Shown here piece by piece: positions 29,551 to 33,625 of a DNA stretch of 64,000 nt. The position numbers were made by a program, and so were the translations under genes. This stretch comes from Mongoliibacter ruber (GTDB lineage Bacteria > Bacteroidota > Bacteroidia > Cytophagales > Cyclobacteriaceae), in NCBI RefSeq assembly GCF_003003005.1, contig NZ_PVTR01000008.1:186001-250000 (forward strand). Reading direction: 5' to 3'. Every line of letters begins with the position of its first letter. Position 1 is the stretch's first letter. Below the pieces are notes generated by a model. It was not told where the DNA came from. It saw only the letters and a list, made by a program, of their open reading frames with translations, and did not search any database.

Positions 29551-29897
29551 AACTATAAAAAAAGTTTAAAATTATGCAGATTCCAAAATTACTTATCATT
29601 TAGTTTGAATTTAGGAGGGTAACCTGAATTGACAAAATAATATTTTGAATTATAGTATTTAAATAAGATAATATAGTAAGAAATTAAACTAAAAAGTTTA
29701 TTTATTTTTTTGGAATTAAGACTTTTAATTTTAGGTTTCAGAAATAAATAAGCTCATTGAAAGATTATTTATGATTAAAATGTGTTTGTTAAACCATGTT
29801 TATCAATGGATATGGATCACCAATAGCTTAAACAATAGAAGATCTATATTTTATTCTGGAGTAATAAGTCAAGCTTGTACTATTTCTAATAAAATAT
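29551..29897. other. AT-rich leader region of the peptide cassettes
   Basis: Markedly AT-rich compared with the flanks and without a convincing gene. The open frame ending NRDEWSESSADLNVRGV (29771-29953) probably results from the conserved element that follows rather than from a gene. No exact TAnnTTTG box was found; TTTG-like motifs are present at several places. It presumably holds the promoter for cassette 1. Confidence 0.4.
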
Positions 29898-29953
29898 CCA
29901 ATCGCGATGAATGGTCAGAGTCTTCAGCTGACCTTAATGTCCGAGGAGTCTAA
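29898..29953 (+). promoter_or_regulatory. Conserved upstream element, cassette 1
   Basis: A block of about 50 bp shared with 31431-31486, starting AATCGCGATGAATGGTCA and ending near GTCCGA. It contains a stem GGTCAG (29913-29918) / CTGACC (29928-29933) with a 9-nt loop. The last pair changes from G-C here to C-G in cassette 2, which keeps the stem. It also encodes a short frame, MNGQSLQLTLMSEESNI, conserved in copy 2. In cassette 1 that frame is open into the peptide gene. Confidence 0.6.
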
Positions 29954-29975
29954 TATTCAAAAAAATCCAAAGAAA

Positions 29976-30167
29976 ATGAAAAAGTTCAACTTAGAAATGT
30001 TAAGACTTACTTCAGATAAGGTATTGGGAAGAAGTCAGATGAAGAAGATTACGGGGGGGTATAGTACAACCTTAAGATGTTCTGATTGGTCAAGAACAAT
30101 GCAAGTGCACAGGTGCAATCAAAGCACCATTAACTTTTATTGTCGTGAAGGTGGCTCTTGTACCTGA
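29976..30167 (+). CDS. Double-glycine leader peptide 1, Cys-rich core
   Basis: 63 aa from MKKFNLEMLRL. Residues 1-28 form a leader ending GRSQMKKITGG, the type cut by C39 peptidase exporters after the GG; the 35-residue core begins YSTTLRCSDW and has four Cys, ending GGSCT. The frame crosses a run of seven G at the GG codons. The leader is nearly identical to that of peptide 2. An in-frame ATG 23 codons upstream (29907) lies in the conserved element and is a less likely start. Family resemblance: Bacteroidota GG-leader natural-product precursors. No modifying enzyme is encoded nearby, so the product may be unmodified or disulfide-bonded. Confidence 0.75.
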   Translation: MKKFNLEMLRLTSDKVLGRSQMKKITGGYSTTLRCSDWSRTMQVHRCNQSTINFYCREGGSCT

Positions 30168-30194
30168 AAGTTTTGAAGGATTGAATCTTTTTTT

Positions 30195-30217
30195 GGCAGC
30201 CCATTTAAGGGGCTGCC
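30195..30217 (+). promoter_or_regulatory. Intercistronic hairpin, cassette 1
   Basis: GGCAGCCC, 7-nt loop, GGGCTGCC: an 8-bp perfect GC-rich stem between peptide 1 and the propeller gene. No T run follows, so it is more likely an mRNA-stabilising or partial-termination structure that favours the peptide over the downstream gene. Cassette 2 has a hairpin in the same place. Confidence 0.6.
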
Positions 30218-30261
30218 TCAATAAATACTTCATAATTATGGTTACTCTAAACAGGCTTCAA

Positions 30262-31404
30262 ATGAGAAAAATCCTTAGGTTAATTGCATCGATTTCATTT
30301 TTACAGCTTATGACTTCTCCTTTCATACAAGCGCAAGTTAAGCTGGAAAAAGTCAATGAGTTCCGCATTGCCTCTTTTGAAACATTTGATATTGTAGACT
30401 ATGATCCAGAAAAGAAGAACTATTTGGCATATGCACCAAGAGTTTCCGGGTTTGAGGTTGTTGTTATTGATGAAAAAGGGAGAGTTTTAAGTAAAAAAAA
30501 CCTTCAAGGGCAAGGTCCGGAGCAATTCAATTCTGCTTTGAATTTTCTGGGCTTTTCTGGTTCTGAAAACATTTTGGTCATTACCCCAAACGAACTCATT
30601 ACTTACGATAATCAGCTTAATTATAAAGGAAGAAAAAAACTTTTAGTAGAAGACATATTTGTCACTTCAAGACTGACTAGTGCTCCAATTTTTTACTACC
30701 CAGAAGATAAACAGGGAAAACAGGTGTACGCTGTTGCCCCTTCTCTAACGTCAGTTTTTATGACAGTAAGTAGTCTTGAAAACCAGTTTCTTGTTAAATT
30801 CTTTGATCCTGACTCAAATAAGCAAATTAGTTTCTTGCCTCTAAAGGATAGAAGTATTTATGGCAAGTTGGATAAAAGTGTTTTTCCTATGTATGCCCCA
30901 ATAGTTACAATCGATAGAAACAAGAAAACTTTATATGCGACAGCCACATTGGACGGGGAAATTTCTGTCATGGATATCCCGTCAGGTAAGGTGATTTCCA
31001 CGGTTAAAATCAACCATGGGAAATTCGGTAGTTTTAATAAGTTTCCAGTTAGTGACAGATCATTGTCGAGTTATTCCCAATATACACTTGCCTCAATGAA
31101 CCAAAAATTGGTCAGCATTGAAGACGGGGTATTTGTTTTGGATTATGTCAGGGAAATCGAAAAGGAAGTTTTTGAAAGGAATTATCAGGAGGATCCCAAA
31201 TACCATCACTTTCAGGATCCCAAATACCACCGCATGATCTTCTTTGATGAGAAAATACAACTTTCAAATGATATTCCAATGCCCAAAAATGGTAAATTGA
31301 TGATTAGCCTTCCAGGCAATAGGCTACTCTTCAAGATTGTTGACCCGGAGGTAGAATTGGATTTTATTAGATATGAAGTTTATAAAGTTGTTCTAAATAA
31401 ATGA
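30262..31404 (+). CDS. Secreted beta-propeller-like protein of cassette 1
   Basis: 380 aa from ATG 30262 (MRKILRLIASISFLQL..., signal peptide cut near FIQAQ); ATG 30238 adds eight residues and is also possible, while the open frame to 30145 is not signal-like. No domain is firmly recognised. Repeated short beta-rich units (VVVIDEKGRVLSKKNLQGQGP, NELITYDNQLNYKGRK, TLYATATLDGEISVMDIPSGKV) suggest a six-bladed propeller like the DUF4221/BF3164-type proteins of Bacteroidota. A duplicated segment, DPKYHHFQ/DPKYHRMI, is visible near the C-terminus. Function unknown; its position after the peptide gene implies a joint role at the cell surface. Confidence 0.7.
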   Translation: MRKILRLIASISFLQLMTSPFIQAQVKLEKVNEFRIASFETFDIVDYDPEKKNYLAYAPRVSGFEVVVIDEKGRVLSKKNLQGQGPEQFNSALNFLGFSGSENILVITPNELITYDNQLNYKGRKKLLVEDIFVTSRLTSAPIFYYPEDKQGKQVYAVAPSLTSVFMTVSSLENQFLVKFFDPDSNKQISFLPLKDRSIYGKLDKSVFPMYAPIVTIDRNKKTLYATATLDGEISVMDIPSGKVISTVKINHGKFGSFNKFPVSDRSLSSYSQYTLASMNQKLVSIEDGVFVLDYVREIEKEVFERNYQEDPKYHHFQDPKYHRMIFFDEKIQLSNDIPMPKNGKLMISLPGNRLLFKIVDPEVELDFIRYEVYKVVLNK

Positions 31405-31430
31405 GATGAAAATAGGACTTATAAAAATAT

Positions 31431-31486
31431 TCAATCGCGATGAATGGTCACAGGCTTCGGGTGACTTTAATGTCCGATGAAAGTAA
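31431..31486 (+). promoter_or_regulatory. Conserved upstream element, cassette 2
   Basis: Second copy of the element at 29898-29953. Stem GGTCAC (31446-31451) / GTGACT (31461-31466) with the same 9-nt loop; one end pair is G-U instead of G-C and the inner pair is swapped C-G for G-C. The short frame reads MNGHRLRVTLMSDESNI and stops, with a double change TCT to AGT that keeps Ser. Both an RNA structure and a small upstream ORF are therefore plausible. Confidence 0.6.
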
Positions 31487-31508
31487 TATTTAATAAAATC
31501 TAAAAATC

Positions 31509-31723
31509 ATGAGAAAGTTAAATTTAGAAATGCTCAGACTTACTTCAGATGAGGTATTGGGAAGAAGTCAAATGAAAAAGATTACGGGGGGGGTAACACT
31601 TATTCATGTAGATGCTATGGAAGTGTAGGCCAATGGACGGGGAATTATTCAAGTGATCTAGATGCAGCAAGAGCAATAGGGACTTGGTGTGCAAGTGGAA
31701 ATGGTTCTTGTTCAATGATTTAA
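31509..31723 (+). CDS. Double-glycine leader peptide 2, frame broken at a G8 run
   Basis: Leader MRKLNLEMLRLTSDEVLG...MKKITGG differs from that of peptide 1 at only four positions. A run of eight G (31586-31593) then puts the frame off: as written, translation ends at TAG 31626-31628 with a 39-residue product (TLIHVDAMEV tail). With six or nine G, the frame continues to TAA 31721-31723 and gives a core of about 42 residues beginning NTYSCRCYGSVGQW, with four Cys and ending GNGSCSMI, echoing the GGSCT end of peptide 1. The break is therefore either slippage (phase variation), a fixed mutation, or a sequencing error in a homopolymer. Confidence 0.7.
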
Positions 31724-31749
31724 ATTTTTTCAATTATAAAAAAGTACTT

Positions 31750-31790
31750 AATGCGTTGGTTCCTTCGCATTATGAAGGGACTAACGCATT
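31750..31790 (+). promoter_or_regulatory. Intercistronic hairpin, cassette 2
   Basis: A 17-bp stem with two G-U pairs (AATGCGTT...AACGCATT as outer arms, CCTTC/GAAGG inner) and a 7-nt loop, 27 bp after the peptide 2 stop and 18 bp before the DUF4221 gene. It is longer than the cassette 1 hairpin but in the same place and also without a T-rich tail long enough to be a sure terminator. Confidence 0.65.
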
Positions 31791-31807
31791 AATTTATTTT
31801 ACTAAAC

Positions 31808-32959
31808 ATGAAAAAACTGATATTTATTTTAGTCTTTCTAAGTTTTTCTTGCTCAAAAAAAACTGACACAAACAAATTGGGCTATTTCACAGGTACCCAT
31901 ATTTCTATAGACACCTTAGTTATTTATTCAAATAATGAAATTATCTATACTACCAAAAAAATTACTGGATCCGACATCAGTTTAGACAGGAATTACTTAT
32001 TCAATTTTAACGCCTTTGACCATACGCTTGAACAAATCAACTTGGATAAGCTTAAGCTCGAGAAAAAACTTCCATTTGAAAAAGAAGGCCCCAATGGTAC
32101 AGGTTATTTTGTCGATTATATAAATATTACAGAAGATAATTATGTTTTGGTAAAAGGAATCAATAAAACCGAACTCTTTAATCTAAATGGGGAGAAATTA
32201 AGAACAATAGAATATGAAAACTATTCTTTAGGTTGGGATAAAGGTGGAGAAGTACATATTCCAAGTCCTTTGCTTGACACCTATTTTGATAGATTGTTTG
32301 TGCTTATTAACAAGGAACTGGAAAAAAGCTATGCTCTGGGGATCCTTGATACCGAATCAAATGAAATTAACTCAATATCATTAAATTCATACCAGGGCTT
32401 TGAGTATTACACCTTTAGCATAACCGTATCTAAAGCTACCATCAATACTCCTCAAAAAATTTATTTAAGCTTATTTGATAGGAAGTTGATGTTGTCAAAT
32501 CAAGTAGATAATGGGATTTTATTATATGATATTGAAGATAATAGAATTTATACCAAGTTTAATCATAGTCAACTGCATAATGATAAAAAGGAGAAAGATT
32601 ATCAATTTGAACATGAATCATTTGAAAGTAAAGATGCTGAATACAGTAAGTTTCTTCAAGAGATCAATTTCTTGCACCCTTTTTGGGATGAAATAAACCA
32701 GATTTTTTTCCGATTCTCCTATGAGGAATTGGAATCTGGTAATAAGGATGATGATCATGTAAAAATAAAAACATACTTGACTGCTTTGGACAAAGATTTT
32801 AATCTGTTGGGCGAAATGTACCTACCCGAATTAAATAAATTACCTTTAGAAGGTACTTACACCCAATTTCCAAAACATTTTGCCAAAGATGGAAATATCT
32901 GGATATATGAAAATATTAATGATGAGATGGGTTTTGTGGTTTTGACTATATCTAAATAA
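31808..32959 (+). CDS. DUF4221-like lipoprotein of cassette 2
   Basis: 383 aa lipoprotein: signal peptide MKKLIFILVFLSFSC with lipidated Cys15 followed by SKKTD. The body is beta-rich and matches the DUF4221 style (LPFEKEGPNGTGYF, LFNLNGEKLRTIEY, IYLSLFDRKLML, FAKDGNIWIYENIND); an LxxxGP element is shared with the cassette 1 protein (NLQGQGPEQF). Probably a six-bladed propeller attached to a membrane. DUF4221 genes are seen near GG-leader peptide and C39 exporter genes in Bacteroidota, which fits this site. AT-rich, like the whole island. Confidence 0.75.
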   Translation: MKKLIFILVFLSFSCSKKTDTNKLGYFTGTHISIDTLVIYSNNEIIYTTKKITGSDISLDRNYLFNFNAFDHTLEQINLDKLKLEKKLPFEKEGPNGTGYFVDYINITEDNYVLVKGINKTELFNLNGEKLRTIEYENYSLGWDKGGEVHIPSPLLDTYFDRLFVLINKELEKSYALGILDTESNEINSISLNSYQGFEYYTFSITVSKATINTPQKIYLSLFDRKLMLSNQVDNGILLYDIEDNRIYTKFNHSQLHNDKKEKDYQFEHESFESKDAEYSKFLQEINFLHPFWDEINQIFFRFSYEELESGNKDDDHVKIKTYLTALDKDFNLLGEMYLPELNKLPLEGTYTQFPKHFAKDGNIWIYENINDEMGFVVLTISK

Positions 32960-33002: not shown

Positions 33003-33476
33003 AATTTCCTCTTGAAAACCACCTTCCCCTTCTAAAAACAACCCGACTTTAAAGACTGGGGGCCCACCTGTCTAAGAATAGTCGCTAAGCACTTTGGCAT
33101 GCTGATCTCCTTAAAGGAAATACGTGAAATATCAGAAACGACAAGGGAAGATAGCAGCTTGCTAAAACTAAGTAATGCCGCAGAGGCTATGGGATTTAAA
33201 ACTATTGGGACCAAGATGGATTTATTTAAACTTTATATGGCTCCTTTACCACGTATTCCGGGTCATTCGGAGCCTGTGTCTTCGGATCGTTGGTATTTAA
33301 GCCATTGGCTTGATTGTTAATGAAGTAAAATACTCCTTTACCATGAGTTCGAAGGCACAGCCTTCGGACAACTGAGGAAAGATACGGTCCATATTTCTAA
33401 TCCAGCCTATGGTCTGATTCAATATACCAAGGAAGAATTCATTTCACGATGGATCGGCAACAATGCCAATGAGCAG
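33003..33476 (+). pseudogene. Decayed C39 peptidase domain of a peptide-exporting ABC transporter
   Basis: Reads NFLLKTTFPF, then a stop (TAA 33033-33035, where Tyr is usual), then KQPDFKDWGPTCLRIVAKHFG...ETTREDSSLLKLSNAAEAMGFKTIGTK, and later VHISNPAYGLIQYTKEEF, matching the C39 peptidase domain from start to near its end. The catalytic Cys in the family's DCG motif is Trp (DWGPTC). The middle (about 33240-33380) is scrambled, and the TM/ATPase parts are absent. The remnant ends where copy B of the duplicated block begins. It is the right protease class to cut the GG leaders upstream. Confidence 0.8.
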
Positions 33477-33625
33477 ACCAAAGTGGAGGGATGTACTTTA
33501 TTGAGAAGGTCTGTTTGAACCACCAAAACAGGCCTGGTTTTCCCCGTTTCTGTTCCGAATCTTGGATCAAGATTTGCCAACCAAACCTCGAACCTTTTAA
33601 CCTTCCCCATCTTCAATTTGCTCAA
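33473..33625 (-). pseudogene. MazF-type toxin fragment (copy B)
   Basis: First 50 residues of the toxin at 28475-28834 with a single change in the well-aligned part (GTETGK for GTEAGK). It stops matching after STLVC, where the C39 remnant joins, and ends in unrelated residues. The C-terminal half with the catalytic region is missing. Confidence 0.85.

Follow-up and report, generated by a model that had tools for sequence, protein, structure and literature searches.

Layout of the locus

The window analysed here, a 64-kb stretch of the Mongoliibacter ruber genome, carries two consecutive units of the same order, each made of an upstream element, a small gene with a double-glycine leader, an intercistronic hairpin and a gene for an exported protein of about 380 residues (Table 1). 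A previous sequence-only reading had drawn this plan, and it holds well: 169 nt of upstream element plus leader are repeated with 86% identity (29891-30059 and 31424-31592), the leaders of the two units are nearly identical, both second genes have the expected length, and a hairpin lies between peptide and partner in both cases. That reading had overlooked the direct repeats that flank the locus, the 5′ stub of an exporter gene and the trace of a gene for a C39-VKOR-thioredoxin protein. The DNA from 29793 to 30062 aligns at 76-80% to the equivalent junction in several relatives.

Table 1. Features of the M. ruber locus, numbered from the first nucleotide of the window.
Feature	Position	Strand	Remarks
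Trace of C39-VKOR-thioredoxin gene, 3′ end	29793..29858	+	One in-frame stop; tblastn with the 523-aa protein of a relative gave 64% over 22 aa (E 6e-4)
Upstream element, unit 1	29903..29946	+	Conserved CGCGATGAATGG and predicted H-type pseudoknot; covariation; no Rfam match; stems S1 29913-29918/29928-29933, S2 29922-29927/29941-29946
Peptide 1	29976..30167	+	28-aa leader ending in ITGG, then core YSTTLRCSDWSRTMQVHRCNQSTINFYCREGGSCT; leader profile and translation
7-G tract, unit 1	30053..30059	+	Encodes GG cleavage site of peptide 1, in frame
Intercistronic hairpin, unit 1	30195..30217	+	8-bp stem, z -1.7
Propeller 1, partner of peptide 1	30262..31404	+	380 aa, signal peptide, no lipobox
Upstream element, unit 2	31436..31479	+	Same predicted pseudoknot as unit 1; stems S1 31446-31451/31461-31466, S2 31455-31460/31474-31479
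Leader frame of peptide 2	31509..31628	+	Stop reached past GG site; leader profile and translation
8-G tract, unit 2	31586..31593	+	At GG site of peptide 2; frame lost here
Core of peptide 2, GNTYSCRCYGSVGQWTGNYSSDLDAARAIGTWCASGNGSCSMI	31592..31723	+	Frame differs from that of leader
Intercistronic hairpin, unit 2	31748..31792	+	20-bp stem, z -8.2
Propeller 2, partner of peptide 2	31808..32959	+	DUF4221 lipoprotein, 383 aa
C39 ABC exporter gene, 5′ stub	33021..33503	+	Stops, frameshift, Trp at catalytic Cys position

Sequence comparison and covariation support an H-type RNA pseudoknot as the upstream element. It appears to be uncatalogued, as nothing in Rfam reached gathering score and searches with E up to 10 returned only low scores far below it. 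An operator-like DNA site is a less likely reading, given that the dyads interleave with each other and that many of the changes are compatible with G-U pairing. The pseudoknot was detected solely ahead of leader-peptide genes, which are so far the only targets of this covariation-supported motif.

Peptides and G tracts

Peptide 1 is intact, with 63 residues including the export leader and a core of four cysteines that ends in GGSCT. The second peptide had been described as a similar small gene with a four-cysteine core ending in a G-x-SC motif, and here the description fails in part: the core ending in GNGSCSMI does exist, and it matches the cores of relatives whose partners resemble propeller 2, but the leader frame passes through eight G and stops after ITGGVTLIHVDAMEV, leaving the core in another frame. 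An intact open reading frame for peptide 2 is ruled out, with the frameshift falling precisely on the GG cleavage site. The two tracts are the only runs of at least seven G or C in the window and both fall at a leader/core junction, as one would expect if slippage made peptide production phase-variable. We find this improbable: a plain frameshift or a homopolymer assembly error suffices, and the tracts of relatives at this site are mostly short, 73 of 118 showing no run of at least four and just three reaching at least seven.

Exporter remnants

The stub adjoining unit 2 downstream is the only C39 match of the whole genome. Tryptophan replaces there the catalytic cysteine that is present in all 45 C39 frames of related loci, and the fragment resembles the cassette-type scars of relatives. 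The sequence-only reading had suggested looking for C39 exporters elsewhere in the genome, and none was found; HlyD is likewise missing from the genome, and is present in three of the four relatives searched as controls. In the sister species the equivalent site, beside the same RND gene, carries an intact exporter of 736 aa. With a broken stub as the sole C39 match, export as it was earlier proposed cannot work in M. ruber, and with peptide 2 frameshifted the picture of a working exported-peptide system has to be given up for this organism. As for modifying enzymes, said to be absent nearby, the statement is right for the window, but related operons encode a C39-VKOR-thioredoxin fusion and a DUF6734 or LanC-like protein.

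Partner proteins

Judged by its profile score, propeller 2 is a clear member of DUF4221 (PF13970, 117.9 bits for a gathering cut-off of 23.4), and its AlphaFold2 model (pLDDT 86.1) matches 3s9j, a DUF4221 protein, with E 9e-14. Propeller 1 has no Pfam match above cut-off and stays below the DUF4221 gathering cut-off; its predicted structure (pLDDT 86.6) nevertheless shares the DUF4221 fold by structure search, 3s9j being the top PDB match (E 6e-12). The genome has seven more DUF4221 genes distant from any leader peptide, and the fold is therefore not specific for immunity. Our literature search found no published function for DUF4221, and no paper on DUF4221, NVEALA or the present peptide/partner system.

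Recurrence and pairing in the Cyclobacteriaceae

The leader pattern is not due to chance, because its profile scores 2e-20 at this locus and recurs in 45 of 391 genomes of the family, with 136 peptides, up to eight of them consecutive; this recurrence rules out a chance origin of the units. The pairing of one peptide with one propeller had been expected to fall if peptides lacked propeller neighbours in nearly all relatives. The relatives show the opposite: of 117 peptides with a cysteine-rich core, 108 have a partner-sized gene on the same strand no more than 500 bp downstream (nine have none), mostly from three families, that of propeller 1, DUF4221 and DUF5128. Two other families of partners do not consist of propellers: one is a thioredoxin-like lipoprotein and the other, by eye, a carboxypeptidase-regulatory-like protein.

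This pairing is both widespread and specific. Between genomes, similarity of cores follows similarity of partners with r 0.757 (100 units, 41 genomes), a value reached by none of 500 shuffles, and within families 1, 2 and 3 the correlation is 0.90, 0.82 and 0.79, against 0.07 for leader and partner. Across genera it is 0.711, compared with 0.03 ± 0.03 for a within-genus shuffle and 0.02 for the leader. In 91 of 93 cases, where 19.6 were expected, a core and its closest counterpart in another genome have partners of the same family. On these sequence comparisons, it is the core and not the leader that predicts the partner. To be sure, linked inheritance of neighbours can by itself create a correlation between core and partner.

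Related operons encode C39-VKOR-thioredoxin, C39-ABC and HlyD proteins. Exporter 5′ fragments outnumber full-length exporters, 47 to 32, and 19 of the fragments directly precede another leader. Partner genes frequently occur alone, 43 of 148 lacking a leader peptide upstream, and a full-length partner has persisted beside most of the 16 broken peptides.

Proposed exchangeable peptide/immunity cassettes

We propose, with a probability of roughly 60%, that the two units belong to a system of exchangeable cassettes, each pairing a toxin-like peptide with its cognate immunity protein and served by a C39 exporter with VKOR-thioredoxin and HlyD. A unit comprises a predicted 5′ RNA pseudoknot, followed by a double-glycine leader that is constant over its 28 aa, a core that varies and is rich in cysteine, then a hairpin and lastly the cognate exported partner. 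As a rule this partner is a propeller of the six-bladed type, from DUF4221, DUF5128 or the propeller 1 family. In intact relatives, where the operon runs C39-VKOR-thioredoxin, peptide, partner, C39 ABC exporter and HlyD, the exporter would cut the leader at GG, the VKOR-thioredoxin protein would oxidise the core to form disulfides, and the core would be set free as a bacteriocin-like toxin, while the exported partner, probably the antidote of its matching peptide, would shield the producer in the envelope. Core and partner are inherited together, and homology of the shared leader and pseudoknot at one edge of the cassette, and of the 5′ end of the exporter gene at the opposite edge, would allow cassettes to be swapped, leaving exporter stubs behind.

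The earlier guess of a receptor, immunity factor or surface partner was reasonable, and immunity is favoured by orphan partners and by broken peptides next to intact partners. That the partner is instead a factor for maturation, folding or display (disulfide isomerisation, carrier, surface scaffold) is unlikely: one partner family is thioredoxin-like and partners are exported just as the peptide is, but the operon already has a dedicated disulfide-forming protein, and partners that so often lack a peptide, or outlive a broken one, do not behave as helpers. We think it similarly unlikely that the peptides serve in signalling or adhesion, each with a propeller as its surface receptor or sensor. 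One-to-one pairs with diverse cores fit peptide and receptor equally well as toxin and immunity, and Bacteroidota do have lipoprotein propellers that bind a ligand at the surface, such as BtuG for B12; proteins of this sort are among the weaker fold matches. However, the cassettes were not seen to move with any TonB transporter, kinase or regulator, and up to eight different pairs per genome, with many peptide-less partners, would be unusual for pheromone systems.

In M. ruber itself the units are orphans, since the exporter is lost and peptide 2 frameshifted, and would confer at best immunity against the peptides of relatives. The locus may also be merely decaying, with no present function, a reading we hold at somewhat less than even: the loss of exporter and HlyD, the frameshift and the operon traces on either side suit it, yet neither partner frame is broken, and peptide 1 and the two pseudoknots are likewise intact; orphan immunity or recent loss is therefore as likely as decay. 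Decay in M. ruber does not conflict with what we consider the best explanation of the wider family.

For that wider family, we give about even odds to a polymorphic toxin-immunity system in which a fixed leader would serve dozens of disulfide-type toxins, interchangeable and each with a propeller immunity protein of the outer envelope, recombination between leader/pseudoknot and exporter would trade the cassettes, and one uncatalogued H-type pseudoknot would govern all peptide genes in many genera. This would yield some 100 new candidate antibacterial peptides with matched candidate antidotes and, as the propeller of each peptide is predictable, the idea can be tested pair by pair.

Comparison with known systems

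A conserved GG leader with a short core, seen here over 136 compared leaders, is the mark of PCAT-exported double-glycine peptides (class II bacteriocin- or microcin-like); the C39 peptidase-ABC exporter that goes with them is found in the relatives, and M. ruber has no more than a broken stub of it. Some Algoriphagus operons, though not the window, encode a GT-like protein that, at 23.2 bits, stays below the cut-off of 27.3 for the family-2 glycosyltransferase expected of glycocins. The leader resembles TIGR04149, of rSAM-modified RiPPs in Bacteroidota, but membership was rejected: none of the seven peptides tested reaches the curated 25-bit cut-off (10.5 and 20.6 for the window peptides, the second read through its frameshift, and 23.4 for the best relative). 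No radical SAM enzyme was noticed among the clustered open reading frames of the operons.

The bacteroidetocins (PMC6671954) share several traits with the present system, as Bacteroidota peptides with a double-glycine leader, a C39 ABC exporter and an operon-encoded thiol oxidoreductase. Their mature peptide has four conserved cysteines; each of the window cores also has four, and the number varies among relatives. The bacteroidetocin leader has 15-16 residues, and the producers of these well-studied peptides appear to be without an immunity gene (PMC6671954), which speaks against the immunity reading. By contrast, the present leader is constant with 28 residues, each peptide has one cognate partner, and there are tandem polymorphic arrays and a pseudoknot. 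Many of the present DUF4221 members (PF13970; 3s9j) are tied to one peptide each, and propeller families of Bacteroidota without a known role might in this way gain a function, as specific immunity or binding proteins for one peptide each.

The logic of the arrays resembles that of the orphan toxin-immunity modules of CDI and Rhs systems (PMC3150448), where a constant N-terminal part precedes a toxin part that varies and is linked to a partner gene of its own, delivery-gene fragments lie between the modules of orphan arrays, and immunity genes outnumber delivery genes. Here too, the variable part is linked to a cognate partner and the constant part is not. Unlike these systems, there is no large two-partner-secreted CdiA or Rhs delivery protein, peptide 1 being 63 aa long with its export leader included; the constant part is the 28-aa leader, the payload a putative disulfide-type peptide of 30-60 aa with a putative toxin role, and the stubs are exporter 5′ fragments instead of toxin fragments. 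The cassette logic of polymorphic toxins would thus extend to small C39-exported peptides.

The two units and their missing exporter

Both units lie on the + strand and follow the same order, with an upstream element, a leader peptide, a hairpin (of modest strength in the first unit, very strong in the second) and an exported protein, the partner. The stretch spanning upstream element and leader is a direct repeat of 169 nt, 86% identical between the units. The sequence-only reading had described two equivalent units, and this description stands for their order, the hairpins, the open reading frames of both partner genes and peptide 1 with its four-cysteine core. It does not stand for peptide 2, the frame of which is broken at a tract of eight G where unit 1 has seven, these two tracts being the only G/C runs of at least seven nucleotides in the 64-kb window.

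Features of the cassette block
Feature	Position	Strand	Remarks
First bracketing repeat	28682-28914/33473-33705		94% identity
Second bracketing repeat	29092-29391/33703-34002		89% identity
VKOR-thioredoxin gene, last residues	29793-29858		upstream of units; also DNA alignment across junction
H-type pseudoknot, unit 1	29903-29946	+	strong covariation
Peptide 1	29976-30167	+	intact, four-Cys core
H-type pseudoknot, unit 2	31436-31479	+	strong covariation
Peptide 2 leader frame	starts 31509, stop at 31628	+	runs through 8-G tract
8-G tract, unit 2	31586-31593	+	7 G in unit 1
Peptide 2 four-Cys core	31592-31723	+	frame differs from leader's
C39 ABC exporter fragment	33021-33503		directly downstream of units; 60% identity to exporter's first 137 residues

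The idea of a working exported-peptide system in this genome had to be abandoned. Beyond the exporter fragment, no other C39 match was found in the M. ruber assembly (100% complete by the tool's estimate). The fragment carries stops and one frameshift, and in its D-C-G-P-T-C motif Trp stands in place of a Cys that the 45 related C39 frames all keep. This genome also has no HlyD component, which was found in three of the four relatives that served as controls. Because the export step is missing, the window units are orphans. The sole genome of the genus seen besides, a Mongoliibacter sp. MAG, has an intact 736-aa exporter and HlyD at the equivalent site, adjoining the same RND gene. On both sides the block is flanked by direct repeats made up of 3' fragments, mazF-like and RND-efflux, which suggests that it lies within a duplicated or inserted segment.

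Cassettes in other genomes of the family

The leader profile matches 45 of 391 genomes and 16 of 84 genera of the Cyclobacteriaceae (hosts include Cecembia, Aquiflexum, Cognataquiflexum, Arthrospiribacter, Nitritalea, Rhodonellum, Mariniradius, Pleomorphovibrio and Algoriphagus), and across 395 genomes of the phylum it finds almost nothing outside the family. Loci fetched from the matching genomes gave, together with the window, 136 leader peptides. The usual intact operon encodes a C39-VKOR-thioredoxin protein (about 520 aa; Pfam C39, VKOR and Thioredoxin_4 each above cut-off), the peptide, the partner, a C39 ABC exporter (about 733 aa) and an HlyD-like protein (434 aa), often followed by DUF6734 or LanC-like proteins and then by further peptide/partner units. 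In G395, G344a, G002 and similar loci, the accessory gene 3' of HlyD codes for DUF6734 or for a LanC-like protein with glycosyltransferase-like genes, possibly an undescribed peptide modification.

Exporter 5' fragments outnumber full-length exporters (47 vs 32), and 19 of them lie at most 400 bp upstream of another leader; the typical cassette is therefore peptide, partner and exporter stub. The window's stub is most simply a scar of this type. Some further genomes of the set are without an intact exporter too, and in several it is encoded at a different site. In Algoriphagus boritolerans (G195), where no intact exporter was seen in the genome, six leaders of a seven-peptide array (L057) each have the 5' stub of an exporter some 180 bp ahead of them.

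Partners without a leader peptide within 500 bp upstream are common (43 of 148, some of which may have peptides missed by the profile), whereas 9 of 117 intact peptides have no gene downstream. Truncation or a frameshift, as in peptide 2 of the window, affects sixteen peptides, most of which keep a full-length partner. Retention of full-length partners in the window would fit immunity; recent decay fits too.

Core and partner travel together

The proposed pairing of peptide and propeller was borne out among relatives. A gene of at least 150 aa lies within 500 bp behind 108 of the 117 peptides whose core is rich in Cys. When the 400 bp that follow each of the 136 peptides are considered, 94 genes come from three families, that of propeller 1, the partner in unit 1 (34), DUF4221 (34) and the DUF5128 six-bladed propeller (26, assigned by Pfam); most of the remaining downstream genes belong to smaller families. 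Over 100 distinct pairs from 41 genomes, compared between different genomes, partner similarity follows core similarity with r 0.757 (0.00 ± 0.02 when shuffled, 0.13 ± 0.04 when shuffled only among one genome's units), a correlation that can arise from co-inherited neighbours without physical specificity. The r values inside each of these three large families are 0.90, 0.82 and 0.79. Between genera, core and partner still give 0.711, leader and partner 0.021. Since the leader lies physically closer than the partner to the core and yet shows no such correlation, it is core and partner that make up the inherited unit. The window units obey this rule with r 0.86 (unit 1) and 0.54 (unit 2, using the out-of-frame core).

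Only propeller 2, the partner in unit 2, matches the DUF4221 model. AlphaFold2 modelled both partners with confidence (pLDDT 86.6 for propeller 1, 86.1 for propeller 2), and these predictions give them the same propeller fold, since the DUF4221 protein 3s9j is the nearest solved structure to each (E 6e-12 and 9e-14, respectively). Seven more DUF4221 genes, some in tandem, lie on contigs C2, C3 and C5 of the M. ruber genome (L144-L148) with no leader peptide of this system nearby. On another contig than the window's, at L148:4256-5763 (- strand), a Cys-rich peptide of 63 aa that bears a Sec-type signal (MLVSLMITSFSVSVFANESFCGHDPVSG...) precedes a DUF4221-type gene; this may be the same pairing served by a different export route.

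A pseudoknot ahead of the peptide

An upstream box, CGCGATGAATGG, with two interleaved stems behind it is common to seventy units. Across 64 distinct sequences, 5.84 of the 6 pairs form in stem 1 (4.91 ± 0.09 when 5' and 3' sides are swapped between sequences) and 5.64 of 6 in stem 2 (5.07 ± 0.06), a small shift being allowed in the search for the partner strand in data and control alike; one stem-1 position shows five standard pair types, and G-U pairs are frequent. The loop lengths, 3, 0 and 7-9 nt, agree with an H-type pseudoknot. Each of the 60 boxes that a strict pattern found in the loci lies ahead of a leader, all 26 pattern matches in seven whole genomes lie at leader peptides, and the only two perfect matches in the M. 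ruber genome are those of the window; part of the Algoriphagus units have different upstream sequences instead. No Rfam match was found for the element, a candidate new cis-regulatory RNA. As it sits in unit 2 about 30 nt past the stop codon of propeller 1, we infer that it controls translation or mRNA processing of the peptide.

Likely function and known counterparts

The computations on architecture, pairing, scars and pseudoknot are sound; to a toxin/immunity reading we give a probability of roughly 0.6. In intact relatives, the C39 exporter would recognise and cut the leader, as is established chemistry for this exporter family. The VKOR-thioredoxin protein would oxidise the core, by analogy with bacteroidetocins, which need a thiol oxidoreductase (PMC6671954). 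The released peptide would then act on related bacteria, and the exported partner would give protection. The cassettes resemble CDI arrays in layout, with exporter stubs here and fragments of the delivery gene cdiA there; the orphan toxin-immunity modules of CDI arrays may widen the immunity repertoire (PMC3150448). The system is akin to known C39-exported bacteriocin-like peptides, from which it is distinguished by the scale of its cassette arrays, its paired propellers and its RNA motif.
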